Shown here piece by piece: positions 1-64,000 of a stretch of DNA of 64,000 nucleotides. How positions within the stretch are numbered: the first letter of the stretch is position 1; the number at the start of each line of letters is the position of its first letter. A program made the position numbers and the translations under genes. The stretch is from positions 7,713-71,712 of the forward strand of contig RWJK01001113.1 in assembly GCA_004335835.1 (NCBI GenBank). The letters run 5' to 3'. This stretch comes from Scenedesmus sp. ARA3 (taxonomy: Eukaryota; Chlorophyta; Chlorophyceae; Sphaeropleales; Scenedesmaceae). The notes beneath the pieces are model-generated. The model saw only the letters and a program-made list of their open reading frames with translations, did no database searches and was not told where the DNA came from.

Positions 1-229
1 CGGCAGCAGCAGCAGCGGCAGCAGCAGCAGCAGCGGCAGCAGCAGCAGCGGCAGCAGCAGCAGTGGTAGCGCTACATATGGCCCAGGGGAGGGAAAGGTG
101 CCTTGCTTGGTGCAGGAGGTGAGCAGGCTGCAGTTGAAGCGGCGCAATGCAATTGTGGGCTTGTTTGTGCAGTCAAGGCTGCTGCTGGCTGGAACCAGCG
201 GCAGTGATCCTGTGGCCGGAGATGCAGAG

Positions 230-279
<50 letters not shown>

Positions 280-1729
280 TCTGCAAGAAGCAACGGCAAC
301 GGCACCACCAGCAGCAGCCGTCAAAGCAGTGGCAGCCGCAGATGCCGCAACAGCCGCCGCTGCAGGCGAAGCGGCAGGCAACACACCTGGTGGTCCAGCA
401 GGCAGGCTGGCAGCAGCATCAACGGCAGCTGCAGAAGCCAGTGCTGCTGCTGGTACTGCTGTTGGTCAGTCAGAGTCAACTGCTGGCCCACTGCAGCAGC
501 TCAAGCAGCAGTGGTCAGACCCGTTGCTGTGGCAGAAGGCTTTCCTCACTGTCAACGACCAGAAAACACTACTGCGAGAGCAGCAGAAGCTCAGGTTTGC
601 GCCGCAGGATCAGCAGCAGCAGCAGCAGCCAGTGCAGGCTGACATGCGCATTGTGTACAGCAGAAACTCTGACGCAGCTGAGCAGGCGGCATTTGCTGCT
701 GCTCTGACTGCTGCCCAGCAGAAATGGGCCAGTGCACATGCCTACGCAAAGAGGATACGGCAGTGTGCTACTGCGGCAGCAGCAGCGGGTGTGGTGCAGC
801 AGGCACTGGCTGCTGCGGGTGTACTGAACCGGCTGCAGCAGCTGCTGCCTGATGCTGCGCTGCTGGCCCTGGCTGGTGGCTTACCTGGCTGGCAGCAGCA
901 GCAGCAGCAGCGCACAGCACTGACGGCAGCGGCAGTGTGGCTGGCATCAGCAGCAGCAGAGGCAGCAGCACAGGGGCAGGTGCAGGCAGCAGCTGTGGAT
1001 GGGGCCTTGAGGGTTGAAAGTGAGCTGGCAGAGGAAGGACTGCAGTATGTCCAAGCAGTGCAGCAGCAGATGCAGCAGAAGCTGCAGCGTACAGCAAAAC
1101 TTTTGCTGCTTGAAGCAGCACCAGCAGTGAAGGTTGACACTGGCAAGCAGCAGCAGCCGCTGCGCACAGCAAAAGCACGATCGGTGAAGGCGCGCACTAA
1201 CAAGCAGCAGCAGCCGCAGCGCACAGCAAAAGCAGCTCAAGCAACAAAGGCACACTGCAACAAGCAGCAGCCGCAGCGCACACCCAAAGCAGCACCAGCG
1301 ACGAAGGCCCGCACTGGCAAGCGGCAGCAGCTGCAGCGCACAGCACAAGCATCACAAGCGGTGACGGCCCACACTGGCAAGCAGCAGCAGCCGCAGCGCA
1401 CAGCAACGGCAGCACAAGCATTGAAGACCCTGACGCCTAAAGAGCAACAGCTGCTACAGGCCCTCAACACAGCCTTGTGCCGCACCTTCCTGCACACCTT
1501 CGAGCAGCAGCAGCAGCCGGCGGCAGCGAGCAGCAGCACACCACAGCTCAACAGCCAGCAGCAGCCAATGCCGGTGTTTGTTGCTGCTGCAACAGCACTG
1601 CAGGGAGGCGCTGCTGCAAGTGCTGCTGCAGCAGCTGGCGATGCAGTGCTAGTGCATGATGGGCTGCGGCAGTCACAGCTGCAGCCTCCTGGTACTGTGC
1701 CAGCAGCAGCAGCAGAGCCAGCAGACACA

Positions 1730-1796
<67 letters not shown>

Positions 1797-4192
1797 GCAA
1801 CGCAGCAGGTGATGTGCAGCCGCTGCGGCGCAGCGCCCGCAAGCGCCCCAGGAAGATGGAGGAGGCAGCAGGAGCAGCAGCCCCAGCGGATGAACGGGCG
1901 CAGCAGCCAAACAAGAAAGCCAAAGCCACAGAATCAACCAAGGCAGGTAAGGTTCAGCCGTAGCTTGAAACTGGGAAACGTGGGTTTGTTTGAAAAACAG
2001 TTGAGCAGGAGCATTAGTGCTGCATGCGGGTGACAAGTCATTGCAGGATTGCTCGGCTGTTCTGCCGGAGCAAGCATGCGTCGTAGTTTTTGGCGCCAGT
2101 ATTGATGCTGTACTGCAAAAACTGGGATGTGGGCTCTGCTTGCCGACAACACTAATGCACATGTGCAGCAGTGGTAGGAGGTGTGAAGGCGCATGGGGTA
2201 TCCTCATTGTCACACACACACCCTCCCTTGATTTATGCGGGTGGCGAGTGATAAAACACCACACGTAGCTCATTCATCTTTTCATGTGCAGCATGCAAGC
2301 AGCACAGACTCTTGAGCATCTGCAGCAAGTCAGCAGCCCTGCTGCCACTTGCGCTGCTGCCTGCAGGGGCTGGCGCAGCTGCTGCTGCCGCTGCTGCTGC
2401 TGGATGCGGCTTGCTGGCGTGTGCAACTGCGACTATCAACAAACGCGAGATAACAGCGGAGGACCTCATGGCGGTGAGTCTAATGTATTCTCTGTACTGT
2501 TTGGTGCGTCTAATTCCAAACGTCAAACTGTTACTTTCGTTGTGTCTGATCTCAAACGTCAAACTGTTACTTTCGATTGGTACACGCTACATGCCTGAAG
2601 TTGTTGGTTCAAGTTTGGGCACAAGCTGCGTAGCCCTAACAGCAGCGAATGCCGTGTTGCGGCGGTGGGCCCGGCAGTCACCCTGTACCTCACCAACATA
2701 ACCCCGCTATGTATCAAACACCCTGCACCGCGACATGTTTAGATATATAGCTGTGTACAGCCGTTCCAGGTGCGCGCTGCTGCATTGAAGCTTGGTAACC
2801 GCAGCAGCACAAGACGGCGCTAGGACACAGGCAGCAGCAGCGGCAGGTATGTCCGTGACAATTACCCCATAGCTGCAACTTCAATGCCAAGCTGCGCTTG
2901 CTGCGCCATATGGCGCATTGAAGTTGCAGCTGTGGGGCATGCATGTGGTGTATGCTTGCAGGTCTTCCAACTAGACGCGGAAGCAGCACGGCTGAGCTGG
3001 TTTGTCAACAAGACAGCCCTCAATCCACTCCAACACCAACATGCTTTCCATGCTACGCCATGCACACGCCAACATGCTGTCCATGCTACGCCATGCACCA
3101 TACATGCTACGCCATACACCAACATGCTGTCCATGCTACGCCATGCACACGCCTGCGCGTGTTCCGCTTGGATGCAGAAGCAGCGCGGCTGAGCTTCAAC
3201 GTGCGCGAAGCCGCCTTCAACTGCTGTACGTGCAACAAACATGCCTGCAGGTTTTCCATCTGGATCAAAAAGCAGCGGCCTGCACCTTCGGCATGGGCGT
3301 GACAGCTCTTAAAACGGCGCTGCGAAAGAGCTTCGGCATCAAGCGCTGGCCCAGCCGCAAGTTTGCTCCGCTGCGCCGCGTGCTGCGCTACTATGATGCA
3401 GTGGGGCCTGCAGAGGACGCGGCATGGCTGCGGTGAGTGATGCACAGCTGCGCGATGGCTGCACCCCATGCGTATCAGCATGCTGCGCTGAGTCAAGTGC
3501 AGCTGCGCGATGGTTGCCTTCTGTTCGCATTAGCATGCTGCATGGTCCACATTTGCATCTGTGTGCGCGCCGTGTTGCGCTACCACGAGGCAGTGGGGTT
3601 TGAGCAAGATGCAGAGTGGCTGCGGTAAGTATGCACAGCTGCCTGATTGCCATGCTGACATGCGTCCTTGCATATCAGCGTGCTGCATGGTCGGCACGTG
3701 CATCTGTGTGCGCGGTGTGCTGCGCTACTACGGGGAAGCCCCATGTGCTGCACATGCAACCCTTTGTGCTGCTGCTGGTCTGCAGCACAGTATTTTCTTC
3801 AACGGCAACTCTGCCGCCGCCGCTGATGCTACTGCTGCTGCCGCTGCAGGGAGCTGGAGCAGCAGATGATGCTCAACCCCAACATCCCGCTGCGCGTCAA
3901 AGGGCAGACCCGCCGGGAGCGGCGCTACGCACAGCTGTACCGGGTGAGCATGGCTTGGAGCAACAGCACCTCACGTACGCGACATGCAGATATCTGTGCT
4001 GGTGCTGGTCCGCAGCACAGTACTTTCTTCAACGGCAACATACGCTGCTGATGATGCCGCCGCCGCCGCCGCCGCTGCTGCTGCTGCTACTGCTGCCGCT
4101 GCTGCTGCAGGGAGCTGGAGCAGCAGCTGATGCTTAAACCCAACATGCGGCTGCCTGTCAAAGGGAAGGGCCGCTACGTACAGGTCTACAGG
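1..4192 (+). CDS. RWP-RK domain transcription factor, 5' end beyond the window
   Basis: Proposed exons: <1-1946, 2292-2473, 3251-3432, then 3850-3943 or its alternative 4111-4192; the 3' end is not resolved. The frame is open to the left edge, so the start lies outside. The first exon is low-complexity Ala/Gln/Ser, with one Ala tract coded by GCA (about 232-282) and another by GCT (about 1731-1793). It has five or six copies of a basic 20-residue repeat (about 1130-1440, core GKQQQPQRTAKA) and a nuclear-signal-like stretch RRSARKRPRK near its end. Exons 2 and 3 join in phase to give KREITAEDLMA followed by VFHLDQKAAA, then SFGIKRWPSRKFAPLRR. This is the RWP-RK helix-turn-helix with its signature RWPxRK. 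Family knowledge: such factors bind DNA and control nitrogen responses or gamete/egg programmes in plants and algae. The target here is unknown. The family call is sure; the gene model is only partial. Confidence 0.8.
2962..3240 (+). repeat. Two extra copies of the RWP-RK exon start, with a minisatellite between them
   Basis: A copy at 2962 follows a good CAG acceptor and reads VFQLDAEAARLSWFVNKTAL. A second at about 3158 reads VFRLDAEAARLSFNVREAAF but has GCG instead of an AG acceptor. Both match the start of the real exon at 3251 (VFHLDQKAAA) and neither continues into the RWPSRK half. Between them (about 3034-3150) is a tandem array of about 33 bp units with the core catgctacgccatgcac. Splicing into the first copy would destroy the DNA-binding domain, so these are probably dead or regulatory exon copies. 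Confidence 0.75.
3570..3745 (+). repeat. Copies of the 3' end of the RWP-RK exon
   Basis: The exon ending at 3432 codes VLRYYDAVGPAEDAAWLR before GTGAGT. A diverged copy at about 3572-3627 codes VLRYHEAVGFEQDAEWLR and keeps a GTAAGT donor in the same phase. A shorter copy at about 3712-3735 keeps only VLRYYGEA. The upstream flank (tgcgcgatggttgc-like sequence) is duplicated as well, so the copied unit spans the exon end and some flank. Confidence 0.75.
4111..4192 (+). other. Alternative copy of an RWP-RK gene exon (possible mutually exclusive exon)
   Basis: Both 3850-3943 and 4111-4192 start after a (CTG)nCAG acceptor and end at a GTGAGC donor. They code RELEQQMMLNPNIPLRVKG and RELEQQLMLKPNMRLPVKG (first residue split across the junction). 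Lengths are 94 and 82 nt, both 1 more than a multiple of 3, so either one restores the frame but both together break it. This is the arithmetic of mutually exclusive exons. Two further fragments follow, at about 4268-4298 and 4403-4436 (AQLYR-like), where the donor GT has become GC. Confidence 0.6.
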
Positions 4193-5100
4193 GTGAGCTT
4201 GCAAGCATTGGGCACAGCACCGCATGTGTGCCACATGTGCAACCCCTTACCTGAGTACCGTATAGCTTGCGTATGGCACAGCTGTACCGGGCGAGCAGGG
4301 ATGCAGCACAACACCTCATGTGCAGCAGCCGCATAGGCACATGTGCAGCTGCTTACTAAGGGTGAGTACAGCATGGGGGCAGTTATGGTATCACGTAGCT
4401 GGTGCGCTACGCACAGCTAACTGTACAGGGCGAGTGTTGATGGCCACAGCAGCGCAGCATGTTCAGAGTGACCTGCCAGCTTCAAGTCAGGCCGCAGGCG
4501 CAGTGTGGCCTAGATGCAGCGGGTTGACGAGTGAGTGAGTGAGTGAGTGACTGCCCAGGCAGCTCTGCAGCTCCTGGCTAAGTTAAGGCTTAGCGGGTGT
4601 GTGTGGCCAGGGGCGTCGCCATGGTGCGGTTGCTACCTGTCACAGTCTCCGTGCCCGTCAGTTCATACCTAGCCTGCCAGCTGACTGCTGCCTCATGTGC
4701 TGCTGCCGCATGTGCTGCTGCCGCATGTGCTGCTGCCGCATGTGCTCCTCGCTGGAAGGTCAACGCCCAACTTTGCCCTGCTCTTGCTGTTTGCATTGTG
4801 TTTGCGCCTGCACAAGAGGCAGACGCGCAACAAGGAGCTGTACCCATGATCAATGCCAGGCTGAAAGAGCGAGGCGGCTGCAGCAGCAAGTCATTTAATC
4901 ATGTCTGTATAAACATAAACTACCCAACTAAGAAGATGCATCTTCAGCGTACGCACTTCGCAGTGCTGACTCGGACGTTCACAACTATGCCCCGTGGCTC
5001 TATTCACACCTGACAACAACGGACGAACGCTGGAAACGACTTCCTTTTGCACTTGAACCAGGTATTTTGTGCGCGCGCTGCCTGTCTACGCACGATCGCG
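4193..5100. other. Interval between the RWP-RK and GST genes
   Basis: Holds the decayed exon fragments noted above, a reverse copy of dispersed repeat R1 (4530-4620), a short repeat of the unit tgctgctgccgca (about 4694-4745), and otherwise no supportable gene. The last exon of the RWP-RK gene may lie here but cannot be recognised. Confidence 0.4.
4530..4620 (-). repeat. Dispersed repeat R1, truncated reverse copy
   Basis: Reads as the reverse complement of the R1 copies at 41357 and 50178. Shared landmarks are GAGTGAGTGAGTGA at the outer end, the near-palindrome cccaggcagctctgcagctc, a core like taagttaaggctta, and ggccaggggcg. The flank that pairs with the first hairpin in the other copies is missing here. 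Confidence 0.85.
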
Positions 5101-8100
5101 ATGGAAGCGGCAACAGCATCTCCACACGCAGCATCAGATGTGCTGAAGCTCAAGTACTTCGATCTCTCTGGATTCGGAGGCTTATCAGGAAGAGGAGGCA
5201 GCGTCCGATTCTTCCTGCTTGCCAATGGCATACCGTGAGTGCCAGCATGAGTCCATCCAAGTCAGTTTGCAGAGAGCAGCAGCGCTGCTAGCAGCACTGC
5301 TGCTTGGTTGTCGCCTCGCCAGCCAGCACTATTAAGCACAGCAAGCACTTATATGGAGACGTGCATGTGATCTTTGAGTATAATTGCACCTGTCTATGCG
5401 ACTTTCGGCCGGGATCTGCCACATGGACGCAGGGTGATCCATGCACCGGCGGCAACTTTGGATTCCTGCTGTTACTGCTGACCCTGCTGTTATGCACCAG
5501 GTTCACTGAGGAGGTGGTGTGCAGCACATTGCGAACAGCCTGAAAATGCTGGACGTTGATATTGCACTGCTTTCTGCCTGTTATGTGCCAGGTTCACCAA
5601 GGAGGTGTGGACAACCATTGCGCACAACCTGCATTTGCTGGCTGTTTGTTTTTTATGGCTTCTTGCTGTTATGCGCAGGTTCACTGAGGAGGTGGTGGAC
5701 TGGGCTGGCTGGGGTGCTGGCCTGAAGCAAGAGGCCATGGCTTCAGGTGCGCATTTTGCTGTATGGCCGCAGCAGCAGCAGCACCAGCGCCACCACCAGC
5801 GCCAGCACCAGCACGAGCACTAACAGCAGCAGCAGCAGCTAAATTGTGGCATGGCCTCAGGGGCGGAGCGTTTGGAGTGCTTGCCTGGGGGGTGGCTGTG
5901 CTAGAAGTGCTGTTGTAGCAGCAGTAGCAGCAGCATTAGCAGCAGCACCTGAATCCGGGCATGACTTCAGGGGAGGAGGTGTTGGGGTGCTGGCCTGGGG
6001 CCCACTGTACCTCAGGCGCGCATAGCGTTGTATGGCCTCAGGGTGTAATAACAATAATCATATATATCTCTGGACTGGTGTACGTGCAGCTGCTGAATGC
6101 TGTGATCACAGTCGCGAAAGCTTGCATCATTCAGCCAACAGGTTTTGGAGCACCTGGCATGGTTCGGCAGCGCCTGGCAGGGTCCTAGATGGAGCGCCTG
6201 GCAGGGTCCTAGATGGAAGTATGTTGTGTGCCTAGCTGGTGGTGCGTGACACATGCCTGGGTGCGAGTCCTGCACCAAGTGCATGCCACAGCTTGAAAGG
6301 CCTACTCATGCGTTGAATCAAAGGACATGCTGCGCTGGTGCCACCAACACTGGCAGTGCTGTGATAAGTGCCAGCTGCAATCTGCTGCAGGAGAGAGCCC
6401 TACCGGCCACTTGCAGCTGCCACTTGATGCGCTTCCACGACTCGAGTAGTTTGCCTAGTTCAGTTTGCTGTCCTCGCTGCATCTGCTGCAGGAGAAAGCC
6501 CCACCGGCCACTTGCCGCTGGTCTACCTTCCCGGCAGCAGCAGCAGCAGCCCGCCGCTGCTGGAGACGTTTGCCATTCTGCGGCGGCTGGCGAAGCGAGA
6601 TGGGCAGTATGGGACTGACGAGGAGAGGGACTACGCTGCTGATGTGGCGGCTGATGCAACAGTGGAATTCAGGTGGGGGCAGCTTCGAAGGCTGCTTGTG
6701 AGGCTGTGTGTGTGAAGGGTGCTGTGACAGCTGATGGGGGCGGAGGATTTAGGTGGGGGTGGCGCAAGGTTGGCATCTTTCAAGGCTTCCTGTGAGGCTT
6801 GTGTGTGAAGGTACTGCGGTGGCTCTTGAAGCGTGCTGGGCAGTACGGCAAAGACGAGGAGAGGGATTATGCTGCTGATGTGGCGGCTGATGCAGCAGTG
6901 GAGTTTAGGTGGGGTTGAGTTTGCGAGGCTTCTTGTGATGCTGTGTATGTGACGGGTGCTGTCGCGGGTCTTAAAGCGTGCCGGGCAGTATGGGGCTGAT
7001 GAGGAGAGGGACTACGCTGCTGATGTGGCGGCTGATGCAACAGTGGACTTCAGGTGGGGGTGGTTTTCTGAGGCTTTTTGTGATGCTGTGTCTGTGACGG
7101 GTGCTGTCCGTATGCAAAGCGTGCTGGGCAGTACGGGATTGAGGAGAGGGACTATGCTGCTGATGTGGCGGCTGATTCAACCGTGGAGTTCAGGTGAATG
7201 CTGCACACAATCAAGTAGGGTGCAACAGCTTTTGCATATAGAGGGGTGGGTGGATGGCTGCCGTTTCATTTGTGACGTGTGCAGCCAGTTACGCAGCTGG
7301 TATGTTGATGTTGCCCCGTTGCCGCCGCCACCGCCACTGCTGCTGCTGCTGCTGCTGCTGCTGCGGCAGCAGGCCTGCCCTCCTTGACTCAGCATTTGGC
7401 GGCCCTGACGCAAAACTCGCCTACACATCCTCCCCAAAGAATCTCCCCCACTTCTGCACTGCACGAACCTGTGCTGCCGCTGCCCCCGCTGATATGCTGC
7501 TGCTGCTGCCACAGGCGTGTCCTCTTTCAATCCGTGTTTGGCGGACCAAACACAGAGAACGCCTACAAAACCTCTCCACAGCAGCATCTTAACCTTACAT
7601 CAAAACTCTCATCACCAACCTTGCTGCTTCTGTTGCTGCTGCTACTGTTGTGCAGGGCTGCCCTCCTCGACTCTGCTTTTAGCGGCCCCGACACAAATCT
7701 TGTCTACACATCCTCCCCTGACAAGCGCCCGCAATTCTACAAAGTCATGTGTAACAACATCATGCATACCCTGCTGCAGCTGCAGACACCATGATGCTAC
7801 AGCCTGTGTGTGCCACATCGCATGCATGGATCAATGCTGCTTCTGCTGCTGCTGCTGCTGTGCAGATCTGCTCTGCTCGACTCAGCCTTTGGCGGCCCCG
7901 ACGGAAAACTCGCCTACACATCCTCCCCTGACAAGCGCCCGTACTTCTACAAAGTCATGGAGGCCCTGCTGCAGCGCTTCGGCAGCAGCAGCAGCCACAC
8001 TGTCGGCAGCAGTGCATCCTTTGCTGATGCAGTCGTGTTTGCAGTGCTGTGGGACGATGTGGCGGTGCATGGGCATGATGGGGATCTGTGGGCGGCAAAC

Positions 8101-8193
8101 CCTAGGCTTTTGGGGTTCTTCAGGGCTTATCTGGCGCAGCCGGCAGTGCTGGGTTGGTGCAAAGGGGCCCGGCCAGACTTGCTGAAAGAGTGA
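5101..8193 (+). CDS. Glutathione S-transferase, sigma-like, 236 aa
   Basis: Exons 5101-5234, 5679-5746, 6492-6672 and 7866-8193 join to 711 nt, a complete 236-aa frame. The N-terminal thioredoxin-like domain starts LKLKYFDLSGFGGLSGRGG; Tyr19 is placed like the catalytic Tyr of sigma-class GSTs, and FFLLANGIPFTEEVV follows. SPTGHLPLVYL corresponds to the cis-Pro region and LLETFAILRRLAKR to the glutathione-binding [ES]S.AI..YLA segment. The C-terminal all-helical domain runs from about residue 115 (DEERDYAADVAADATVEFR) to SFADAVVFAVLWDDVAVHG and the stop. Family role: cytosolic conjugation of glutathione to electrophiles, or peroxide reduction. The ATG at 5101 puts the usual few residues before the first beta strand. 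Each intron is filled with copies of adjacent exons, so isoforms are possible. Confidence 0.85.
5501..5625 (+). repeat. Two copies of the start of GST exon 2
   Basis: Acceptor-anchored copies at 5501 (FTEEVV, CAG acceptor) and 5592 (FTKEVW, CAG acceptor) precede the real exon at 5679 (FTEEVVDWAGWGAG). All three share the upstream tract ending tgttatg(c/t)(g/a)c(c)ag. Only the third continues into a full exon with a donor. Confidence 0.8.
5845..6050 (+). repeat. Decayed copies of the end of GST exon 2
   Basis: Segments at about 5845-5895 and 5950-6043 repeat the real exon end (gcatggcttcag with a nearby ggtgctggcctg) and the following intron (gcgcat...gtatggcc). The donor GT is lost in both, so they are not usable exons. 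Confidence 0.65.
6391..6435 (+). repeat. Copy of the start of GST exon 3
   Basis: After an atctgctgcag-like acceptor it codes GESPTGHLQLPL, matching GESPTGHLPLVY of the real exon that starts at 6492, and then diverges into non-coding sequence. Confidence 0.75.
6815..7197 (+). repeat. Three copies of the end of GST exon 3
   Basis: Copies end at about 6908, 7052 and 7193. Each repeats the coding of YAADVAADATVEFR (variants AAVEFR, ATVDFR, STVEFR) and keeps a GGTGGGG or GGTGAAT donor-like sequence. The period is about 140-160 bp, including intron flank that reads gaggctttttgtgatgctg in several units. Confidence 0.8.
7373..7750 (+). repeat. Three copies of the start of GST exon 4
   Basis: Acceptor-anchored copies begin at 7373 (ALLDSAFGGPDAKLAYTSSP), 7515 (a diverged VFGGPNTENAYKTSP) and 7656 (ALLDSAFSGPDTNLVYTSSP). 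All precede the real exon at 7866. Each has a CTG-rich tract and CAG just upstream. The third is nearly intact up to FYKVM. Confidence 0.85.
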
Positions 8194-8224
8194 TTGCTTC
8201 TGAGCGCATGCTGCGCTTCAGCAG

Positions 8225-8467
8225 CAGCAGCAGCTAGCTGTCAGCAGCAGTGCATCCTTTGCTGATGCTGTCGTGTTTGCAGTGCTGTGGGATGATTTGG
8301 CGGTGCATGGCCATGATGAGGCGCTGTGGGGCTCGAATCCTGGGCTCGCGGGTTTCTTCAGGGCTTATGCGGCACAGCCGGCTGTGCTGGGCTGGTGCAA
8401 AGGGGCCAGGCCAGACTTGCTGACAAAGTGACTGCTGATGAAAGCATGCTGCGCTTCAGCAGCAGCG

Positions 8468-8515
<48 letters not shown>

Positions 8516-9660
8516 ATGCAGTTGGCAGCAGTGCATCCTTTGCTGATGCTGTCGTGTTTGCAGTGCTGTGGGACGATGTGACGGTGCATGGCCATGATGA
8601 GGCGCTGTGGGGTTCAGACCTTGGCCTTGCAGGATGTTTCAAGGCTTACCTGGCACAGCGGCCTGTGCTGTGGTGATGCAAAGGTGCCAGACCTGACCTG
8701 TGTGACCGTGCGGCAGCAGCATCAAACCTGTGAAGCCAGGCCCAGGGGCCTACAGCACTATAAGGATGTGTGTAAGCTGCACTGCAGCGCACAGTACAGC
8801 ATCAGGCACACACTTTTGTGCTAGGTGCTGTGGGACGATGTGGCGGTGCATGGGCATGATCAGGCGCTGTGGGGCTCCAATCCTGGGCTTGCGGGGTTCT
8901 TCAGGGCTTACCTGGAGCAGCCGGCGGTGCTGGGCTGGTGCAAGGGCGCTAGGCCTGACCTGTGTGATGGCGCGGCAGCAGCACAGGTGTGAGAGTTGCT
9001 GCTTTGATAGCCTGCTTGCCTTGTTGGGCAAGTGTGATTGGCGGAGTGTTTGCAGTGCTGTTGGATGATATGGCGGTGCATGGCCATGATGCGGCGCTAT
9101 GGGGTTCGAATCCTGGGCTGGCAGGGTTCTTCAGGGCTTACCTGGCACAGCCGGCGGTGCTGGGCTGGTGCAAAGTGGCCCGGCCAGACCTCCTGAAAGA
9201 GTGATTGCTGTTGAATGGATGCTGGCCTTCAGCAGCAGCACCAGCTAGCTGTCAGCAGCAGTGCATCCTTTGTTGATGCTGTCGCGTTTGCAGTGCTGTG
9301 AAACGACGTGGCGGTGCATGGGCATGATAAGACGCTGTGGGCGGCAAACCCTGGGCGTGAAAGGTTTTTCCAGGCTTACTTGGCACAGCCGGCGGTGCTC
9401 GGCTGGTGCAGGGCCGGCAGGCCTGACCTGTGTGATGGTGCTGCCGCAGCGCAGGCGTGAGAACTGCTGTTCTGATAGCCTGCTTGCGGTTTTAGGCATG
9501 TGTATTTGACGGAGTGGTCCCAGTGCTGTTGGACGATGTGGCGGTGCATGGGCATGATGAGGCGCTGTGGGGTTCAAACCCTAGGCTGAAAGGGTTCCTT
9601 CACGACGTACCTGGCACAGCCGGCGGTGCTGGGCTAGTGCAGGGCTGGCAGGCTTGTCTT
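8225..9660 (+). repeat. Six further copies of the GST terminal exon
   Basis: Downstream of the stop at 8193 lie copies of the C-terminal coding segment, beginning at about 8240, 8520, 8825, 9045, 9258 and 9520. Each codes VFAVLWDDVAVHGHDEALWG-like sequence followed by FFRAYLAQPAVLGWCKGARP-like sequence. Several keep an open frame to a stop. The copy at 8520 ends early (PVLW then stop), that at 9258 has a stop just before NDVAVHGHD, and the last is frameshifted. None has an N-terminal domain, so they are terminal-exon copies or pseudo-exons, not separate GST genes. Confidence 0.85.
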
Positions 9661-14063: not shown

Positions 14064-14110
<47 letters not shown>

Positions 14111-29942: not shown

Positions 29943-29993
<51 letters not shown>

Positions 29994-52764: not shown

Positions 52765-52901
52765 GAAGTTTTGCATTGCCACTTTTGAATACTACTGGGA
52801 AGTTATGCATTGCCACTTTTGAATACTACTGGGAAGTTTTGCATTGCCACTTCTGAATAGTACTGGGAAGTTTTGCATTGCCACTTCCCAATTCTACTGG
52901 G
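52765..52901 (+). repeat. 34-bp tandem repeat, four copies
   Basis: Unit gaagttttgcattgccactt plus ttgaatactactgg, about 100 bases after the peptidase-LRR stop. Confidence 0.95.
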
Positions 52902-53926: not shown

Positions 53927-56249
53927 TCAAGCGTGAGCTGCCTGAGCTGCTGGTGCTGCCTGAGCTGCGGGACCCGCCTGAGCTGCCTGCTGCTGCTGCT
54001 GCTGCTGTTCCTGTTGTGCCTGGATCATCTGCCTCCGCGCCGCGCGGGCCGCAAGCTCAGCAACCGCCGCCTGACGCATCTCCTCAACCATTCGCCGCCG
54101 CTCCGCCAGCAGCGCAGTGCGCTCCCTGCCCTCGTCCTCCCGCCCCTGCAACCGCTTCAGCAGCTTGTTGCCCAGCTGCACCGCCTTCCTGCACTCCGCC
54201 TTCTTGCCATTCTCACCCCCCACAGACGGGGCGCCCCGCTCACTGGCCAGCGCTGCCTCCACTGCTGGCTGGATGTTGGGGATTGCTTGCAGCAGCGCCA
54301 AATTTGCTGCGTGCTGCTTGGTGAGCTTGAGCAGCGCGCGCACCGCCTCCATGCGCGCCAGCCTGCAGGAGTCCTGCAGCAGTGTGGCCAGGCCTGCCAG
54401 CACACCCTGCAGCAGCAGCATGACAAGCAGGCAGATTCACTAGTGAGGCAAGAGCTTGGACGCACGGCCTGCCATGCTGCCTAAGCACCATTTTCAGCCT
54501 GCAGGAGTCCTGCAGCAGCGCGGCCAAGCCTGCCAGCACGCCCTGCAGCAGCAGCATCATGTGTCAGTGACACACAGGCATGTTACATTGGCATGTCAAA
54601 GCACGACATGCGCGCCAGCTTGCAGGAGTCCTGCAGCAACGCTGCCAGGCACTCACATGCAGGTCACATGCTGGTAGTCTGCATTGCATAGGCATGCGAA
54701 CGCACCTATGAGACCATGCACAAGATGCTGGCAGTTACGCCTGGTGTCACACTCATCTGATCCTTGCTGGCAGTACATCGTAAGACCACAGCAGCTGCAC
54801 CTGTGCGGCCCCAAGCCTTGTCTGGTGCTCAGTGAGGTTGCCCAGGCATGTGGCTGCTGCGCGGCGCATGGCCACCTCCTCATGGTACAGCAGCACCGTG
54901 ATGTGCGGCAATGCGTTGGGGGCCTCTACAATGCCAGCCTGCAGGATCAGCAACAGCAGCAGTATGTATGAAAATCTTTTTTCTAGCGGGGCCAGTGCCT
55001 GGCTGGAAGGCTTGCAGGAGTACTGTTCAAGCAGGACAAGCACCTCCAAGCTACAGCTTGCTGGCTGGCTGCTGCAAGCGTTGTGTTGCGTTCCACACGT
55101 GCTTGCATACAATTGTATGCATTTGCCTCACCTGCTGCTCCTTCTGCATGACGCCTGAGCGCACCGCCAGCACCTGCAGCGCCTGCAGCCGGCGCGCCTC
55201 ATAGCTGCCATCAGCAGCCCCAGGCCCCAGCAGGGCCAGCAGCTCAGCTGTCTTCATTTGCTTGTCGATCTTAGGCTGCTTTGAAGCTGGCGGGGTGGGC
55301 TTGGCGTAGCAGCCTGCACGTCCCAGCATGCTGCGGGCTGCTGCTCTGGGCGCTGGCATGTGTGGAGGGGGGTGCGGGGGGCCTGCAAGTACAGTATGGA
55401 CATGCATTTGAGTGCAGAGTTTCCTGCAAGCACCGCATGTAGAGGGATCTGGGTGCAGCGGTCCTGCAAGCACGCAAGTACAGGGTTTGGGTGCGGGGCT
55501 GTTGCAAGCACGGCACGCACAGGGCTTTGGTTTCTTCTGCATGTCTTTTGCCGGGGTGCACGTTGCTGGGACTTGGTGCAGCAGGCAGCTGGTGTGGCGT
55601 CCTGCGGCGCACTGCGCTGGCAGCTGCATCCAACCAACCCAATTGCATGGCACATATAGAGCTATGTGCACGTTTCCTGCAAGCATTTGCAACACAGCTT
55701 GCCGGCTGTCACCTGCTTTGGTGGATGATTCTGCGCGGTTGCTGTTGGTGCGCTGCCGCTTGGCTGCTGGGTCAACCAGGCGCAGCTCCTCTGTGAGGGA
55801 GTCAACCATGCTGCGCAGTGAGGCCAGCAGCTCAACATCCCTGTAGCCCTCAGCAGCGCCCCTGCAGGAACCGTGAGCAAGGTGCATGCAAACAGTGGGC
55901 AAATCAAAAGCAGCAGAAAGGTTTGTATCCCAGTGGTACTGCTGCTGCCTTGTTGATGTCAGCATGCTCTGCCGTGGCATCGCAGCAGTACTACAGTAGC
56001 AGTATTTCAGCAGCAGGCATGCGATACTGTTTCAGTGTTTCATGTATCAGCAGTCTTATCCATGGCAAGCCACGAACAGCTGCTGCCTCAATTGGACTGC
56101 TGATACACCTGGCAGAAGACAGCAGCTACAGCTCTTCTGCTGGTCCACCCTAACGACGCAGCAGCACATTCGCACCTATTGAGCTCCGCCTCTAAGTTAT
56201 CCCTCGCGTTTTGTGAACTGCATCGGAGCTCGTGTGCGTTCATCAACAT
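53927..56249 (-). CDS. Armadillo-repeat protein with coiled-coil tail, 340 aa
   Basis: Exons 56249-56176, 55861-55713, 55313-55132, 54938-54801 and 54406-53927 join in phase to 1023 nt. Start MLMNAHELRCSSQNARDNLE: it is the first ATG after an in-frame TGA. A helix (DVELLASLRSMVDSLTEELR) and a basic AAKRQRTNSNR follow. The next block, KTAELLALLGPGAADGSYEA, leads to armadillo-type helices: AGIVEAPNALPHITVLLYHE with VAMRRAAATCLGNLTEHQTR, then GVLAGLATLLQDSCRLARME with AVRALLKLTKQHAANLALLQ. The C-terminus is an Arg/Glu-rich coiled coil (LLAERRRMVEEMRQAAVAEL) and a poly-Gln run. No enzyme motif. Probably a scaffold; the nuclear-signal-like KRQR suggests the nucleus. Family not identified. Confidence 0.7.
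54485..54652 (-). repeat. Two copies of the start of the last ARM-gene exon
   Basis: On the minus strand, GVLAGLAALLQDSCRLK (about 54548-54498, after a CAG acceptor) and a shorter copy at about 54645-54612 (LAALLQDSCKLAR-like) repeat the true exon start at 54406 (GVLAGLATLLQDSCRLAR). Confidence 0.85.
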
Positions 56250-57261
56250 TGCTGCAGACGCTTTTGGCGGGACGACTGCAGAAGCTAGCAAGCGGTCTCC
56301 GTTTCAGCTAATTCACGCGGTCTTCTGCTCAATAAAAACTTCTTGCCAAATTGGTTTACAGAATGTCTGTTGAGCACCTGCTCGAAGACGAGCCGTTTGG
56401 ACAGGTGGCACATAAACCCGCCCTCGATCAGCAGATGCCAGGCATTGCCTATGTCGCGTCTTGTGTGAGACCGCGGAAGAATCAACATCCTTTGGGCATT
56501 ACATGGCATGCACAGCGCAGCCTGTAGGGACATACAGCAGAAGCCACAGGATGTTAGGCTGGCTTGTACAGGTGGTACAACAGCCAGTTGGCGGGTGCCC
56601 TTAACACACACTGTGCAAGGTGGCACCCACATGAACCAAGCATTTGATAACTACACAACGCTGCTCGGCACCACTGTACAGGCCGAACCAACATTGCACA
56701 TGCAAAGGACACAAGGGCATGCAGGCGTACAGCAAGTGGTGTGCGGTCATCGCCGGCACCTGAACAACAGAGCTGCATGCATGAGCCTCCTGTCCAAACA
56801 TTTCATCTTGAACATCATCTGCCACCTGACATGCACTGCACGACTGCATATGAAAGTACACTCACTATGCCCAGCGCCACAGCAGCAATCGGAGGATGCC
56901 TCCAGAGCAGTCAGTGCAGGTATACAGTCCGGCACCCTGAATGCTGTTCCAGACCAGCACTTGAGCCACACACAACAGTGCCAGGATGCAGCCACCCCAG
57001 CCGTTGCTACTCGCACTGGTCGATGCTGCAGCGCAGGTGGATCTTGCCGTCATAGAAAAACTGCCGCAGCGCCTGCTCGCTGTCCCAGTCTGTGATCCTC
57101 AGGAAGTTCCTGAAGCCCCAGCCCGCAGTGCCGCACACAAAGCCGCTCTCCATGCCGATCCCAAGTCACCACAGGTGGATATTGCCACAGCTTCGCGCTG
57201 ACCAATGCTGCAGGGCAGGCACAGCTGTGCTGCTGCGCAGGCGGGTCTTGATGCAGCACGC
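56250..57261. other. Interval between ARM and BTB genes
   Basis: Promoter of the ARM-repeat gene (right of 56249), then no recognised gene. At about 57008-57175 lies a near-perfect minus-strand copy of the BTB-gene terminal exon: MESGFVCGTAGWGFRNFLRI...FFYDGKIHLRCSIDQCE, ending TAG. It has a CAG-like acceptor region that is altered, so it is probably downstream debris but could be an alternative last exon. Confidence 0.6.
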
Positions 57262-60200
57262 TCACTCGCACTGGTCAATGCTGCAGCGCAGGTGAATCTT
57301 GCCGTCATAGAAGAACCGCCGCAGAGCCTGCTCACTGTCCCAGTCTGTGATCCTCAGGAAGTTCCTGAAGCCCCAGCCCGCAGTGCCGCACACAAAGCCG
57401 CTCTCCATGCGGTTCACAAAAGAGAAGTCCCCGGACACCACCTCGCGCGCTGCCAGCTGGCCTCGGAAGTAGAGCACGTCGGGCAGGTGCGTGGCGCTGC
57501 CGATCTGCAGGAGCAATGCAAAGCAACGCAAGACAGTAGATGTCAGCAGGCAGAGGCAGTGATAAGGATCGGCACGCTGGCCTCGGAGGTAGAGCACGTC
57601 CGGCAGGTGCGTGGCGCTGCCGATCTGCAGTAGATGTTGCAGCAAAAGGAAGCCAAGAATGGGACAAGGTGGTCAGCAGGTTAGCAGATTGAAAAATGGG
57701 GGAAGACTACCAAGAACAGACCAGGCAGAAGTGCGACGACAAATCAGCGCGCTGCACAGCAAAATGTTGAAGGTTATGTGTCCAACTTGTGAGCGTGCTG
57801 TGGCCAGCCCCTCGACACTCCTAAACTCCTGCAAGATGATTGCGATTGTGCAGCTGCCTGCAGCTGCAGGAGACTTGTTTTCGGCATCATCTGGCCTGGG
57901 CCCTCCCGGCAGTCGTACAACCATCAAGCGCATGTCATCCTTGCTGCGCACTCACCGCAATGCGTGCCGTGGTGCCCACAAAGACATCGATGCTGGAGGC
58001 TGACGCAGCAGCAGCTGCGCTGTTGGCCTGCGGCTTTGCCGGAGGCTCCAGCACCTGCAGCGGCAGCAGCAGCAGTGCATTGAATTAAATCTTGTGAAGC
58101 ACAAACACAAACACAAACCACTGAAGAGATAAGGGCTATATCAACAAGGAATTGCAGGCCCCTGCTGAGTCCACCTCAGACGGCAGTATAATAAGGGGTG
58201 TGAACAGCACAGCGGGCACCTGCGAAGCCGTGCATGCACATGCCGCAAGCGCTGGAAATCTAGTACAGGACAATACACCAGCAACAGCAGCAGCAGCAGC
58301 AGCAGCATCAGCACCAGCGCACCTGCAGCACCAGCTGCCACTGGAAGCCGTTGAAGTAGTGCGGCTCCGAGTAGCGGTCCACTGTCACCTTGCTGGCCCT
58401 GCAAAAGCAACAAAGACACAAGCAGCGGCAGCAAGCATATTCATAGCAAGCGAATGAGCTGTGGTGAGGTATTGCGGCTGAGAGTAGCGGTTCATAGTCA
58501 CTTTGCCAGCCCTGCACCGCACAAGCATCATCAACAACATGCCCCACCTGACTGCGCGATCATGGCCTTGACAGCAGCCGGCTCCGGCACCCACTCGACG
58601 GCAACCACCCCCATCAACACCATATCATTGAAACATAAAATTTGTGCGCCCGTACCTGAACTGTGCAATCATGGCCTTGACAGCAGCCAGCTCAGCACCC
58701 ACTCAAACTGCAGCCTGTCTGTAAGCAACTACCTTCAACCAAACAACCTCAAACCAGATGTACTTGTCTTTACCTGAACTGCGCGATCATGGCCTTCACT
58801 GCAGCCAGCTCCAGATCCCACTCAAACTGCTGCCTGTATGTGAACCCACCCCCAATACAAACATACCAAAACATATCAAAATGTATGATTCCTACCTGAA
58901 CTGTGCAATCATGGCCTTCACTGCAGCCAGCTCCAGCACCCACTCAAACTGCAGCCGGGTGACAGCGCTGCGCGCACGCGGCGCAGCATACAGCACCTGC
59001 AACGCAGGCAGCAGCAGCCGCGGCAGCAGCAGGAGGTCAACACGCTTGCAGGACAGCGCTGGTCAGCACGTGCGCAGGATGCACCCCATCTGCAAGCTTG
59101 CAGGACAAGCGAATCCATGATGTCGCATGCTTGGAGGAGCACCGCAGATATTCAAGATTATGTTGCTAGCTGCAGGGCTAAACACAGCAGCATACAATGA
59201 CACCTTCTGCACGGCTCGCACCTTCATCCATAGCAAGCGTCTGGACATGCTGTGCCTGCTGTGCAGGCAACAGTGCTACTGCTGGCTGCCTTTAATCTTC
59301 TACATCCTAAGCAGCATCATAGTAATACTCTTGTACTGCCCGCACCTTCATGCGCGGGAATCGGCTGGGCATGCTGTGCATGCTGTGCATGCTATGCATG
59401 CTATGCAGGCCACAGTGCTACTGCTGGCTGCCAACTACTCTGAACCCACAGCAGCATGACATAGCAGCTCTGCACAGCCCACACCTTCATCCGTAAGAAG
59501 GGCTGGGCATGCTGTGCGTGCTGTGTATGCAAGAATGTGAGTGCTAGATGCCGAATTTTAACTACACCAGCACGAACCGCACCTTCATGCGCGGGAAGCG
59601 GCTGGGCATGCTGTGCAGGCCACAGTGCTACTGTTGGCTGCCATGTAAACTTATTCCAAAGCAGCATAATAATAATACTCTTGTACTGCCCACACCTTCA
59701 TGCGCGGGAAGCGGCTGGGCATGCTGTGCAGCTTGTTGCGCGTGGCCTCGTTGGCGGCGGCGTAGCGCGCTGCGGCAGCAGCAGCAGCAGCAGCAGCAGA
59801 CCAGAGCAGGCAGGCAGCGCCAAAGTTGTCATGTGTTGCCTTAACACAGGCTGGCCACTGCTGCATGGCTAGCAGTGAATGCCAGTCCGGTTGCTGACAG
59901 CGTGGCGTGCAAGCGCTTACATATCAAGACAAGACGTTGTCTAGTTGATATTCAAGCCAATCAGCTGCTGCCCACCTGCTGCCATCAGCGCCTCTGCTGT
60001 TGCAACATTGGCCATGACTGGCAGTCGCTTCACCTCTGAACTCCGCAAAGTGTCAAAGCCCAGCACAGTCACAGAGAAGCAGCTCTCTATACGCGCACCT
60101 GCAGCCATCAGCGCCTCTGTTGTTGCCACATTGGCCATGACCGGCAGCCGCTTCAGTACACTCCCAAGGAAGGCAGGCGACAGGTGCTGCAGCCGCACCT

Positions 60201-60675: not shown

Positions 60676-63600
60676 GCTGGTGCTGCTGCGCCGCCTCGCC
60701 GCCCCCACCCAAAGCGGCGCTGCTCCCAACGTTGCCAGGGACACCTGCGGCATTGCTGCTGCAGCTGGTGCTGCTGCGGGCGTGTGCTTCCAGCCAGCCT
60801 GCTAGTGCAACCAGCACAGTGTTCTCGCTGACCACTGCCAGCTGATCACTAGCCAGTAGCTTCTTGACAGCCCTGCAAGCAGCAGCATGTGAAGTATGGC
60901 ATTGGTTTAGAGTGTTTGATTACACAGCAGCACTGTGTTCTCGCTGACCACTGCCAGCTGATCGCTTGCAAGCAGCTTCTTTACCGCCCTGCAAGAAGCA
61001 GCAGCAGCAAGAGAGCAAGGTTTGTTTACTGAAGTTTTGGTCAGGAGGTTGAACAGCAGCGCGCCTAGACGCCAGCTAACCACACAGTCCTCTACTTGAA
61101 AGCAAAAGCAACAAGCTCACTTGATGAACAGGGCTAAGAACTGCTGCCAGCGGCTGCTGTCCTGCTAGGCCGCGTCCAAGTTGCCATATAAGTTACATGA
61201 GTTGTTACTAACACTCTTCAAATCATAATGTGATGCTCACTTGATGGGCAGGCCCAGGGAACTGCTGCCAGCGGGCGCTGTCTTGCCAGGCTGCCTCCAG
61301 GTTCTCAGTTATGTTACATACAAATGGTATTACACTTTTCAAATCTCAAAGTAACACTCACTTGATGGGCAGGCCCAGGAACTGCTGCCAGCGGGCGCTG
61401 TCCTGCCATGCTGCCTCCAGGTCACCAAACACATCAAGCAGCTTGGCCCAGGCCTTGCTGGACACGCCTGCATGACACATTAGACAACATGGCAGCCAGG
61501 TTGTCATATGATCACTTGTGAACATTACGTTGTGAAAGAAATACATCCAGCAGCTTGGCCCAGGCCTTGCTGGACACGCCTGCTAAACAGGTGACACAGC
61601 AGGCAGCTTCTTTGATACAGCCTTGCTGTGTGTAGTAAAAAGACTACGGCAGATGCAGCCGCCAACTGCTGCAGCACTACCTCAAGTCTGTGCCTGTTGT
61701 CGGCTGCTGCTGCTGCTGCTGCTGCTGTACAAAAGCAGGCAGGCTGTGCTGGCCTGCAAATAGCTGCACCCCTGCAGGAACCCGGCCCCTACACTACACG
61801 GCAGGCACTGCCACCGCCTGCTGCAGCACCCCAGGCAGCCTGTACCTGCATTACAGTTATGCTGCTGCCGCTGCTGCCGCTGCCGCTGCTGCTGCTGCTG
61901 CTGCTGCTGCCTCTGCACATCATACCTGCGAACGGCTGCGCTTCTTGCAGGAACCCTGGCCACTCAAAGATGGCGCACACCGTCTCCAGGGAGAGCTCCT
62001 CCATTGGGGTGTCAGCAAACCTGCCGCAGTCAAACAGTCAAACATACAACTTTCAGCAGTCAACCCACAAGTGCTTGTAACGAAAGAGATAGAGGGAGAG
62101 CTCATCCGTGGGGGTTTCAGCAAACCTGCAGCAGTCGCTTGCACACATGCAGCAGTCAGTGTCACATATGCCTATGGCAAAAGAGATGCCCAGGTGCATG
62201 TGTGGGTGCACAATAGAGCCCAGCGCCAGCTCCTCAAACGGGGTGCAAGGAGCCAGAACACAAACATAAGTCTGACAATCTGCGCCATCTTTGCATTCAT
62301 TACACCTGATATGCCCGGCCGATCATCCAGCCAAAAGCAAGCAAGCAAGCAAGCAAGCAAGGCAGTTTGATCTCTGTCCGTCCCTGCTGGCGCACCTGCG
62401 CGCGCATGCTGCTGGGCAGTTTTTGACCTGGAACCTGTCGCTGAGCCGCATCAGGCGCAGCATGTCATCGTGGCCCAGCGCCGGCAGCTCCCCAGTGTAC
62501 CTGCAGGCACAAAAACAGGCAGTGGTTACTGTTTTGTGTGGTGCAGCCGCATCAGGCGCAGCATGTCATCGTGGCCCAGCGCCGGCAGCTCTCCGGTATA
62601 CCTGCAGGCACAAAAACAGGCAGTGGTTACTGTTTTGTGTGGTGCAGGCGCATCAGGCGCAGCATGTCGTCAAGGCCCAGCGCCGGCAGCTCCCCAGTGT
62701 ACCTGCAACACACACATCAGACACTGGTTGCTGTTTTGGTGTACAGATGTGACTCAATCATGGTGCAATCGTAGTTCAGGCGCATCAGGCGCAGCATGTC
62801 ATCATGGCCCAGTGCCGGCAGCTCCCCGGTGTACCTGCGGCAGCATCGCAGATGGCGGTTACGTTTGTTACTTGACTTAATACTATGTTCACTACATTGG
62901 CGTGTCGTCATGGCCCAGCTGGGGCAGCTCCCCAGTGTCCCTGCGGCGGCGTAGCAGTTGGTGGTTACGTTTGCTACACGACTGAAAGCCCTGTTCACTG
63001 CACTAGCATGTTGTCATGGCCAAGCTGGGGCAGCTCCCCCCCGTACCTGCGGCACAAACATGATATCAAAGAGGTGTCGACACAAGGCACACGTAACTAC
63101 ATGTACAACTCAGCAATAGCAACACAGCAATCTGTGCTGATGATCACAACAAAGACAACAGCGGCAGGATACAAGCTGCTCATACCAACTCCACCGGCGC
63201 TTCAGCCGCGTACGGCGCCGCTCATCCCCTTGCCAACTGTCTGGATCAACATCTTGCATGAATTGTACAATGACCGTTAATGACGTTACTTTTGTGTTAA
63301 TTGCACTCACATGAACTCCACCAGCGCCTCAGCCACATGCGCCTCATCTTCTCCCACCAGCATCGTCAGCCTCCTTTCATCCCCTTGCCAGCTCTGAATC
63401 AGCGTCTTGAAATACTCGCTCAATGCAGCAAGCACAGCACCGTGCACTGGCAGCTCTGCATGCACCCGCAGTGCAGCAGGCGCACTGTGGCCCTGCGCAA
63501 CCGCAGCAGCAGCAGCAGCAGGCTCGCAGCTGGGCTGCGGCTGCTGCTGCGCCTGCTGCTCGGGCTCGGCTGAATCTGCAGCGGCAGCAGCAGCAGCAGC

Positions 63601-63717
63601 AGCTGCGGCAGCTGCGGCAGTGCTGCTGCTGCCGATGCGGCCGGATTGCAGCATGGATGGTGGCAGCTGCTGGCATGGGCTAGCGCTGCTGCCCTGCCGC
63701 TGCGCATCATGCTGCAC

Positions 63718-63759
<42 letters not shown>

Positions 63760-64000
63760 AGCAGCGCCGCCCTGTTGTGTGCCGAACGCTGCTGCTACTG
63801 CCGCCGCTGCAGGGTCTGCACTCCTGCCAGTGTCAGTGCCTGCTTCGGCCTCTGGCTCTGCAGATGCGGTGTTGCCTCGCCATGCTCGGTGCTTGCCTGC
63901 TGCTGCTGCTGCTGCTGCACTTGGGCTGCAGGGACTCCCTGCTGCTGCTGCTCTGCTAGAAGAGCGCCTGGCAGGCTTTGAGCCCTGCTGCTTGTGCCCT
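57262..64000 (-). CDS. BTB-BACK-MATH protein (candidate CUL3 adaptor), 5' end beyond the window
   Basis: Minus-strand exons: >64000-63311, 62500-62396, 62020-61926, 61467-61362, 60872-60542, 60198-60099, 59769-59696, 58996-58896, 58398-58323, 58054-57956, 57504-57262. All phases match, giving at least 673 residues. The first exon is basic and Ala-rich, then BTB: LRVHAELPVHGAVLAALSEY, HVAEALVEFM then YTGELPALGHDDMLRLMRLS. BACK: ETVCAIFEWPGFL, AVKKLLASDQLAVVSENTVL followed by ALAGWLEAHA, then LQHLSPAFLGSVLKRLPVM. The C-terminal part is MATH/TRAF-like: SKVTVDRYSEPHYFNGFQWQ..., TAGWGFRNFLRITDWDSEQA, FFYDGKIHLRCSIDQ. Family role: BTB binds cullin-3 and MATH binds the substrate to be ubiquitinated. 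The MATH part is inferred from weak but ordered motifs. Confidence 0.75.
57570..57628 (-). repeat. Copy of the start of the BTB-gene terminal exon
   Basis: Minus strand: ctgcag then IGSATHLPDVLYLRGQ, copied from the true exon start at 57504 (IGSATHLPDVLYFRGQ). Acceptor and phase are kept. Confidence 0.9.
58455..58835 (-). repeat. Copies of two adjacent BTB-gene exons
   Basis: At 58455-58515, a copy of the exon coding SKVTVDRYSEPHYF (as GKVTMNRYSQPQYL). At about 58536-58600, 58655-58715 and 58775-58830, three copies of the exon end coding WVLELAAVKAMIAQFR, each followed by a GT donor (tcaggtgggg, ttcaggtacg, ttcaggtaaa). The true exon is 58996-58896. Period about 120 bp. Confidence 0.9.
59212..59612 (-). 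repeat. Four copies of the end of a BTB-gene exon
   Basis: The exon end coding HSMPSRFPRMKV (true donor at 59695) recurs at about 59577, 59480, 59338 and 59214, as HSMPSRFPRMKV, HAQPFLRMKV, HSMPSRFPRMKV-like and HSMSRRLLWMKV. Each has a GTG(C/T)G donor. Confidence 0.85.
59962..60045 (-). repeat. Copy of the BACK exon end
   Basis: VKRLPVMANVATAEALMAAG followed by GTGGG repeats LKRLPVMANVATTEALMAAG of the true exon (60198-60099). Donor kept. Confidence 0.9.
60922..60995 (-). repeat. Copy of the start of the main BACK exon
   Basis: Minus strand tgcag then AVKKLLASDQLAVVSENTVL, identical in protein to the true exon start at 60872, then diverging after about 60 bases. Confidence 0.9.
61118..61312 (-). 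repeat. Two copies of a BTB-gene exon end, plus one of its start
   Basis: At about 61240-61310 and 61125-61190, copies of the exon end coding DSARWQQFLGLPIK with GTGAGC donors (variants DSARWQQFPGPAHQ and DSSRWQQFLALFIK). A separate copy of the exon start (GVSSKAWAKLLDV, CAG acceptor) is at about 61582-61545. True exon 61467-61362. Confidence 0.85.
62075..62245 (-). repeat. Copies of the start of the post-BTB exon
   Basis: Minus strand at about 62131: ctgcag then FAETPTDELSLYLF, against FADTPMEELSLETV in the true exon at 62020. A weaker copy near 62240 (TPFEELALGSIVH) lacks a clear acceptor. Confidence 0.75.
62535..63055 (-). repeat. Five copies of the BTB helix exon
   Basis: The true exon (62500-62396, YTGELPALGHDDMLRLMRLS) is preceded on its 5' side by copies at about 62603, 62703, 62837, 62943 and 63050. 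Four keep a CAG or CCGCAG acceptor. The first three code YTGELPALG(H/L)DDMLRLMRL; the two most distal code TGELPQLGHDD and GGELPQLGHDN. Only the 62500 copy continues into SDRFQVKNCPAACAR and a donor. Confidence 0.9.

Follow-up and report, generated by a model that had tools for sequence, protein, structure and literature searches.

Why do genes in one stretch of a green algal genome carry diverged copies of their own exon edges beside the originals? The stretch comprises 64,000 bp of Scenedesmus sp. ARA3 (GenBank assembly GCA_004335835.1, contig RWJK01001113.1, positions 7,713–71,712; hereafter, the window), and the copies, which lie at splice junctions and stop codons, are hereafter called echoes. 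We found that local copying is real and is commoner at exon edges than chance allows: a predicted exon edge lay inside the repeated block in 77 of 137 clusters of local repeats, compared to 52.5 ± 5.0 under random placement of the same block geometry, and the observed count was reached in none of 500 placements. This agrees with the original prediction, made from the letters of the window, that such copies would be more frequent at exon edges than chance. As to their origin, recurrent short-range duplication followed by purifying selection is our best reading, held with a confidence just short of even. The pinning of blocks to splice sites is the new part of the result, and this explanation does not account for it.

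Abundance and spacing of local repeats

The 87.3 Mb assembly (1567 contigs) was sampled as the window plus 24 stretches (L004–L028, excluding the fully masked L023), taken mostly from contig starts. This gave 278 kb of non-N sequence, of which the window makes up almost a quarter. Repeats were detected by self-blast of microsatellite-masked sequence, with three Markov-5 shuffles as controls; N bases, microsatellite-masked bases, and pairs more than 1 kb apart were excluded from the counts, and each repeat cluster was reduced to its best pair to give the 137 clusters. Gene models (47 with at least 300 coding bases) were made with a home-made gene finder using fixed acceptor weights, and were checked against database proteins for three genes (eIF3i, BTB/BACK, and translocator).

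Self-blast of the window returned 142 same-strand pairs less than 2 kb apart, 8 pairs farther apart, and 12 inverted pairs, whereas its shuffles contained no local direct pair. The whole sample contained 330 direct pairs less than 1 kb apart, compared to 0, 1, and 1 in the shuffles, and only 15 inverted pairs; in one stretch-level count, 13 of 14 inverted pairs came from a single locus (L015). At least one local direct pair was present in all 19 readable stretches, as expected from the genome-wide process that had been proposed from the window. Offsets between the copies of two-copy pairs peaked at 105–129 bp (28 of 79 pairs), with a second group at 210–259 bp (12 of 79) and a sparse intermediate range (5 pairs at 165–209 bp), and 76 of the 79 pairs fell between 63 and 256 bp. 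The median offset was 138 bp for donor echoes, 131 bp for acceptor echoes, and 126 bp for exon-internal copies.

Replication slippage seeded by CAG or CTG runs, which had been suggested as the cause, is highly improbable. The 278-kb sample holds 577 such runs of at least four units, but they were no commoner near block ends than at random: within 5 bp in 12 of 79 pairs (14.5 ± 3.1 at random), within 15 bp in 18 (20.3 ± 3.7), and within 30 bp in 20 (25.3 ± 4.1). Inside spacers, runs were found in 10 of 79 pairs (8.5 ± 2.5 at random); because microsatellites were masked before pairing, pairs lying inside the runs themselves could be missed in these counts.

Enrichment at exon edges

Both kinds of splice site contributed to the enrichment, with a donor edge in 61 clusters (39.6 ± 5.3 at random) and an acceptor edge in 52 (40.5 ± 5.8; p = 0.028). 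Among pairs of at least 90% identity, 24 of 43 contained an exon edge (12.7 ± 2.8 at random), whereas pairs below 80% identity showed no edge enrichment (20 of 33 vs. 18.3). The window alone had an exon edge in 24 of 45 clusters (17.4 ± 3.1 at random; p = 0.034). When the test was made free of gene models, GGTGAG was the third most enriched hexamer inside repeats (72 occurrences vs. 35.9 expected), and acceptor words were weakly enriched or not at all (TGCAGG, 1.35x; TTGCAG, 0.81x).

Seven of the ten window gene models with at least 300 coding bases had an echoed splice edge, and the other three had other local repeats, so that the original claim of echoes in 'almost every gene' describes the window; it does not extend to the whole sample, where echoes were present in 24 of the 47 gene models and at 110 of the 674 predicted splice edges. 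Eleven genes had been named as carrying echoes, and local same-strand repeats were found by self-blast in all stretches matched to them. The copy numbers given for three of them were also about right (eight at the LRR donor including the original, six at the BTB acceptor, and about seven for the GST terminal block). The echoes in the window are as follows (d, offset in bp; gene labels were matched to the named genes by reading, without a domain search).

3372–3486 / 3564–3686, + strand: RWP-RK gene, donor-side echo (self-blast 72.6%, d = 192)
3834–3986 / 4095–4237, + strand: RWP-RK gene, exon copy (self-blast 73.7%, d = 261)
5485–5700, + strand: GST-like gene, acceptor and exon start in three copies, the last (5664–5700) read as the original (self-blast)
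6374–6520, + strand: GST-like gene, acceptor echo 6374–6419 of exon start 6476–6520 (91%)
6578–7196, + strand: GST-like gene, donor array of four copies, period ~143, intron part also repeated
7970–9667, + strand: GST-like gene, terminal-exon array of about seven copies (hand count), period ~230–240
11488–11530 / 11580–11622, + strand: ISCA1-like gene, final 43 coding nt repeated beyond the stop (91%)
21273–21406, - strand: ATRIP-like gene, acceptor echo pair (97%, d = 95)
27002–27196, + strand: HEAT-like gene, donor edge 27002–27074, echo 27125–27196, 50-bp unrelated spacer (93%)
29874–30214, + strand: secreted-protein gene, donor edge in three copies (29874, 29997, 30152; self-blast)
30281–30674, + strand: secreted-protein gene, acceptor edge in four copies (self-blast)
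31015–31076 / 31247–31308, + strand: secreted-protein gene, stop-codon echo (90%)
33381–33610, - strand: QCR10-like gene, edge copy (self-blast 71%, d = 122)
35516–35752, + strand: translocator gene, echo 35516–35637 of exon start 35631–35752 (second copy and following exon continuous in protein P0001)
35889–36161, + strand: translocator gene, donor edge 35889–35938, echo 36112–36161 (echo absent from P0001)
37093–37301, + strand: translocator gene, coding end and copy past the stop (downstream copy the closer match to P0001 and P0005)
49654–50820, + strand: LRR gene, donor edge in eight copies including the original, two intron subfamilies (self-blast)
54359–54650, - strand: ARM-repeat gene, acceptor edge in three copies (self-blast)
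57009–57419, - strand: BTB/BACK gene, last coding block 57264–57419, downstream copy 57009–57164 (94%)
57456–57633, - strand: BTB/BACK gene, acceptor 57456–57513, echo 57576–57633 (95%)
58352–58516, - strand: BTB/BACK gene, acceptor 58352–58403, echo 58465–58516 (81%, d = 113)
58546–58956, - strand: BTB/BACK gene, donor array of four copies (self-blast)
59183–59731, - strand: BTB/BACK gene, donor array (self-blast)
59970–60155, - strand: BTB/BACK gene, donor edge 60093–60155, echo 59970–60032 (90%)
60812–61003, - strand: BTB/BACK gene, acceptor 60812–60887, echo 60928–61003 (89%)
61105–61422, - strand: BTB/BACK gene, donor edge in three copies (self-blast)
61427–61607, - strand: BTB/BACK gene, acceptor 61427–61496, echo 61539–61607 (84%)
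61988–62136, - strand: BTB/BACK gene, acceptor 61988–62031, echo 62093–62136 (89%)
62438–63061, - strand: BTB/BACK gene, acceptor, original and five echoes, first two intron units nearly identical (self-blast)

At 37093–37301 in the translocator gene, the modelled coding end differs from that of the relatives, possibly because the stop copy in use changed recently or because strains differ here.

Structure of the copied blocks

A typical two-copy block consisted of a few nucleotides of splice consensus plus some 30–70 nt of exon. The spacer between the two blocks, typically 40–120 bp, was dissimilar to their flanks even where the blocks were 93–98% identical. Copies of the small tandem duplication class adjoin head-to-tail, and such adjacency was found in multi-copy arrays but not in edge/intron clusters, in which the median ratio of block length to offset was 0.48 (48 clusters). 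The copies are thus tandem, as originally described, in the arrays, whereas two-copy echoes are usually split by unrelated sequence. A correlation between block and spacer lengths (r = -0.48, n = 24) was not used, since the cut at offsets below 170 alone can produce it. In the stretch that contains the eIF3i gene (L021), spacers and echo blocks had no match elsewhere in the genome among the candidates scored (40 of 635, E ≤ 1e-8; this one stretch).

Blocks mostly carried a single edge, and the echoes read in pairs of at least 88% identity were without the partner splice site. Most echo blocks do not comprise a whole exon with both splice sites; there are a few exceptions (e.g., L028 7893, where both edges are predicted). 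A new intron running from the GT of the first copy to the AG of the second was found in neither the eIF3i nor the BTB/BACK gene, whose database proteins join the original edges. Noncoding sequence lying in blocks whose partner is at least 30% exon made up 11649 of 174370 bases (6.7%). The idea that echoes build introns therefore holds in the sense of lengthening, and no new intron was seen.

Reading frame, divergence, and use of the copies

All 17 pairs lying wholly inside predicted exons had an offset that was a multiple of three. Edge/intron pairs showed no frame preference (17, 16, and 15 pairs by offset remainder), and exon/intron pairs were distributed as 3, 7, and 6. This in-frame rule is what selection would leave from frame-blind copying. 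The 133 mismatches in 29 two-copy pairs (omitting pairs with both copies called exon) comprised 69 synonymous changes, 62 non-synonymous changes, and 2 stops. The synonymous fraction of 52% is a near match to the approximately 44% expected (hand calculation) for one constrained and one neutral copy.

Database proteins were then compared with the echoed genes. The eIF3i protein P0049 (OEZ85_004795, Tetradesmus obliquus), which fits the longer exons of L021 at 97.8–100%, has each original edge once, and all six exon-derived echo blocks of the gene are missing from it. Similarly, the BACK-domain protein P0169 (OEZ86_004475), which fits the BTB gene of the window with 97% identity over 57% of the query, contains each BTB/BACK edge once and no echo, and P0001 (99% identical and taken as conspecific) holds the original translocator edges once. 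On the strength of the matches to P0049 and P0169, the alga is probably T. obliquus or a very near relative. Because these two proteins are themselves gene predictions from a database, the lack of echoes in them does not prove splicing. Ten places were compared with relatives, of which nine were informative: the used copy had the relatives' residue at six and the echo at three, two of the latter resting on one relative (P0170), and one of these two also having residues of the opposite kind. From these comparisons, echoes appear to be mostly unused, and the suggestion that they supply alternative exons finds no support in the one-edged echoes read or in the eIF3i, BTB, and translocator proteins.

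Could the copies be an assembly artefact, in which overlapping contigs of diverged haplotypes or strains were joined without being merged? At about 120 bp, the common offset is comparable in size to a sequencing read or a k-mer, and the assembly is split into 1567 contigs. On the other hand, the offsets vary widely (63 to 256 bp in 76 of 79 two-copy pairs), roughly every second mismatch is non-synonymous, which differs from the pattern between alleles, and no second copy was found for the two stretches searched (295 bases and 4 kb), nor any paralogue that could serve as an empty site. The original argument that divergence speaks against assembly error gains some support from echoes that keep a relative's residue and from exon-internal pairs that keep the frame, a rule partly built into the gene models. 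We consider an artefact improbable.

Origin of the copies

Under recurrent duplication with selection, a genome-wide process would repeatedly re-copy short pieces of DNA beside themselves in the same orientation, mostly at 105–129 bp, probably through fill-in of staggered breaks or local template switching. Purifying selection would then remove copies that break the message, as the in-frame rule suggests. Two kinds would survive: exon-internal copies that preserve the frame, and copies located at an exon edge or stop codon or slightly past it. The latter would be tolerated because the original remains functional while the copy ends up in an intron or an untranslated end; some copies would further be amplified head-to-tail into arrays. 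Such a history explains how the copies are spaced and oriented, why exon-internal copies keep the frame, why echoes lie in introns on both sides of exons, and why their changes look largely neutral.

Several observations weigh against it. The gene finder books out-of-frame copies as intron, so the in-frame rule is partly built in. Wholly intergenic blocks were rarer than random (21 vs. 37.0 ± 7.2), a shortage that a process striking everywhere should not leave, and none of the eight intron-only pairs of at least 90% identity had an offset of 105–129 bp. Indels per substitution were 0.045–0.055 in the exon parts of edge pairs vs. 0.118 in noncoding-only repeats, and on account of this low rate some echoes may have been constrained for part of their life. 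Intron flanks were compared in 98 of 115 edge pairs (offset up to 420, full flanks). Among the 35 edge pairs of at least 88% identity, the adjoining intron was dissimilar in 21, similar in 10, and between in 4. In the 16 donors with dissimilar introns, identity at +1 to +6 was 1.00, 1.00, 0.94, 0.44, 0.94, and 0.56, then fell toward background; high values at +1, +2, +3, and +5 with a low value at +4 are what two separate splice donors would show. Duplication and selection do not account for blocks with 88–98% exon identity whose end is at the donor. Either the copying was bounded by the junction, or intron flanks were replaced early, or conversion kept the exon parts alike.

The dissimilar introns were concentrated in two-copy pairs (19 of 29 dissimilar, 6 of 29 similar), whereas introns were similar in four of six multi-copy pairs. 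Given an estimated synonymous divergence of ~0.15, an intron duplicated together with its exon should still align, and tandem duplication followed by decay therefore fails for the dissimilar-intron pairs. Pairs with aligned introns diverged by 0.12–0.24 in exon bins and 0.29–0.46 in intron bins beyond +3 on the donor side; on the acceptor side, exon bins were at 0.13–0.27 and intron bins climbed from 0.19 to 0.33. Hypermutation just inside the donor was considered for these aligned-intron pairs and rejected as insufficient, the only peak being a small one at +6 to +9 (0.46 vs. 0.29–0.40 around it). Over the last ten exon bases of the 16 dissimilar-intron donors, identity was 0.75–1.00, and at least 0.94 at 8 of the 10 positions.

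These boundaries bear most directly on junction-bounded copying, in which a splicing- or transcript-linked process would copy only the exon edge and attach it at a splice-like site of the adjacent intron. A transcript- or splicing-linked mechanism had been among the original suggestions, and block ends do coincide with the donor consensus. In edge pairs, 19 of 190 block ends carried CAGGT (3.4 expected), compared to none of 48 ends of noncoding-only pairs and 1 of 34 ends of exon-only pairs, and the exon identity of 88–98% beside unrelated intron flanks in 21 of 35 pairs, together with the +4/+5 pattern of the 16 donors, points the same way. Divergence, moreover, was barely higher far from the junction (0.06–0.16 at 40–72 nt) than within 40 nt of it (0.08–0.11). 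However, acceptor echoes look almost like donor echoes in mirror image, and the two have much the same offset (131 and 138), which suits a DNA process without polarity, and exon-internal copies share a similar offset (126). The match in six dissimilar-intron acceptors extends to about -9, beyond what the consensus alone predicts, TGCAG at edge-pair ends was only borderline (17 of 190 vs. 11.1 expected; p = 0.05), and among about 33 pairs (at least 88% identity) read by hand, 3 stop inside the exon. We regard junction-bounded copying as unlikely, though the least so of the alternatives. Somewhat more doubtful still is its extension that a process linked to splicing or the nascent transcript might write consensus-bounded exon edges into the neighbouring intron ~120 bp away, so that introns would grow from recognised exon ends.

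Short DNA words as general join sites were rejected: against genome baselines, the excess (CAGGT and GTGNG) was confined to edge pairs. TGCAG showed a weak excess in noncoding pairs (6 of 48 ends; p = 0.04). When block ends were compared with block interiors, TGCAG, CAGGT, GTGAG, GTGCG, and GTGNG were enriched and four of five control words were not. The control word CTGGA was depleted at the ends (0 of 276 vs. 25 of 828), showing that block ends and interiors differ in composition.

A further explanation is that the duplications are old and have been kept alike by gene conversion with the original edge, or by intermittent use of the echo in its place, while their intron parts decayed. This would fit the donor consensus retained in echoes, the fewer indels in their exon parts, the 48-residue copy of the BTB end that is 98% identical at the protein level, and pairs with synonymous changes only (e.g., L005 7562, 6 of 6). 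Match runs were unusually long in 6 of 41 pairs (p < 0.05, where about 2 would be expected), which lends it weak support, but the match-run p-values of the 41 pairs do not differ from uniform (KS p = 0.52). The echoes read are without a partner splice site, and two BTB echoes retain a P0170 residue that is gone from the used copy; at these places they have therefore not been reset by conversion. We judge conversion or intermittent use doubtful, on a par with the extension above.

Comparison with known systems

Small tandem duplications arise from staggered breaks through Pol alpha-primase fill-in and end joining; they are described as the commonest class of short human insertions (<100 bp), and natural insertions in plants are cited as well (PMC8355091). 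Echoes resemble them in being short, local, same-stranded (330 direct vs. 15 inverted pairs), and genome-wide, but differ in that most two-copy echoes have an unrelated spacer and a block end at donor sites. Intron gain by tandem duplication of the Rogers type, as in potato RdRp (PMC4974935), likewise involves local duplication of exon sequence with splice signals and an unchanged peptide; an echo, in contrast, lies in an existing intron, the AGGT logic is unused, and no new intron was seen. Exon sequence is also repeated within a gene in tandem or mutually exclusive exons (PMC9013439), whereas an echo typically has one edge without a second splice site. Like introners (PMC9860276), echoes would add intron sequence genome-wide, but they copy the adjacent exon rather than a mobile element. 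No description of exon-edge echoes in this algal group was found among the titles and abstract openings listed by literature searches, and the words intron, exon, and tandem are absent from the main text of two genome papers (PMC7590803, PMC12571836).

If local copying is this frequent, about 7% of the sampled noncoding sequence would be recognisably exon-derived, and 24 of the 47 gene models would have decoy splice sites next to the functional ones; the growth of introns and the errors of gene prediction in genomes of this kind would share a cause. With junction-bounded blocks, one could ask directly whether DNA is marked for duplication by splicing or transcription.

Other repeats in the window

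Repeats of other kinds were also observed. A dispersed element of ~110 bp with GTGAGTGAGTGAGTG near one end occurs at 50178–50293, 41326–41464, and, inverted, 4533–4620, and at no fewer than 39 further places in the genome at ~90% identity; it may represent a short mobile element or one resembling introners. Another dispersed repeat, ~105 bp long (window 2172–2277; L013:1834–1943; L022:8224–8333) is 81–93% identical between loci. The coding-like stretch at 13553–15625, which has a period of 93 bp (31 codons) in the window, has similar counterparts in L011 and L027. Minisatellites are present at 46563–46783 (62-bp unit), 47126–47313 (33-bp unit, units 100% matching), and 52764–52901 (34-bp unit).

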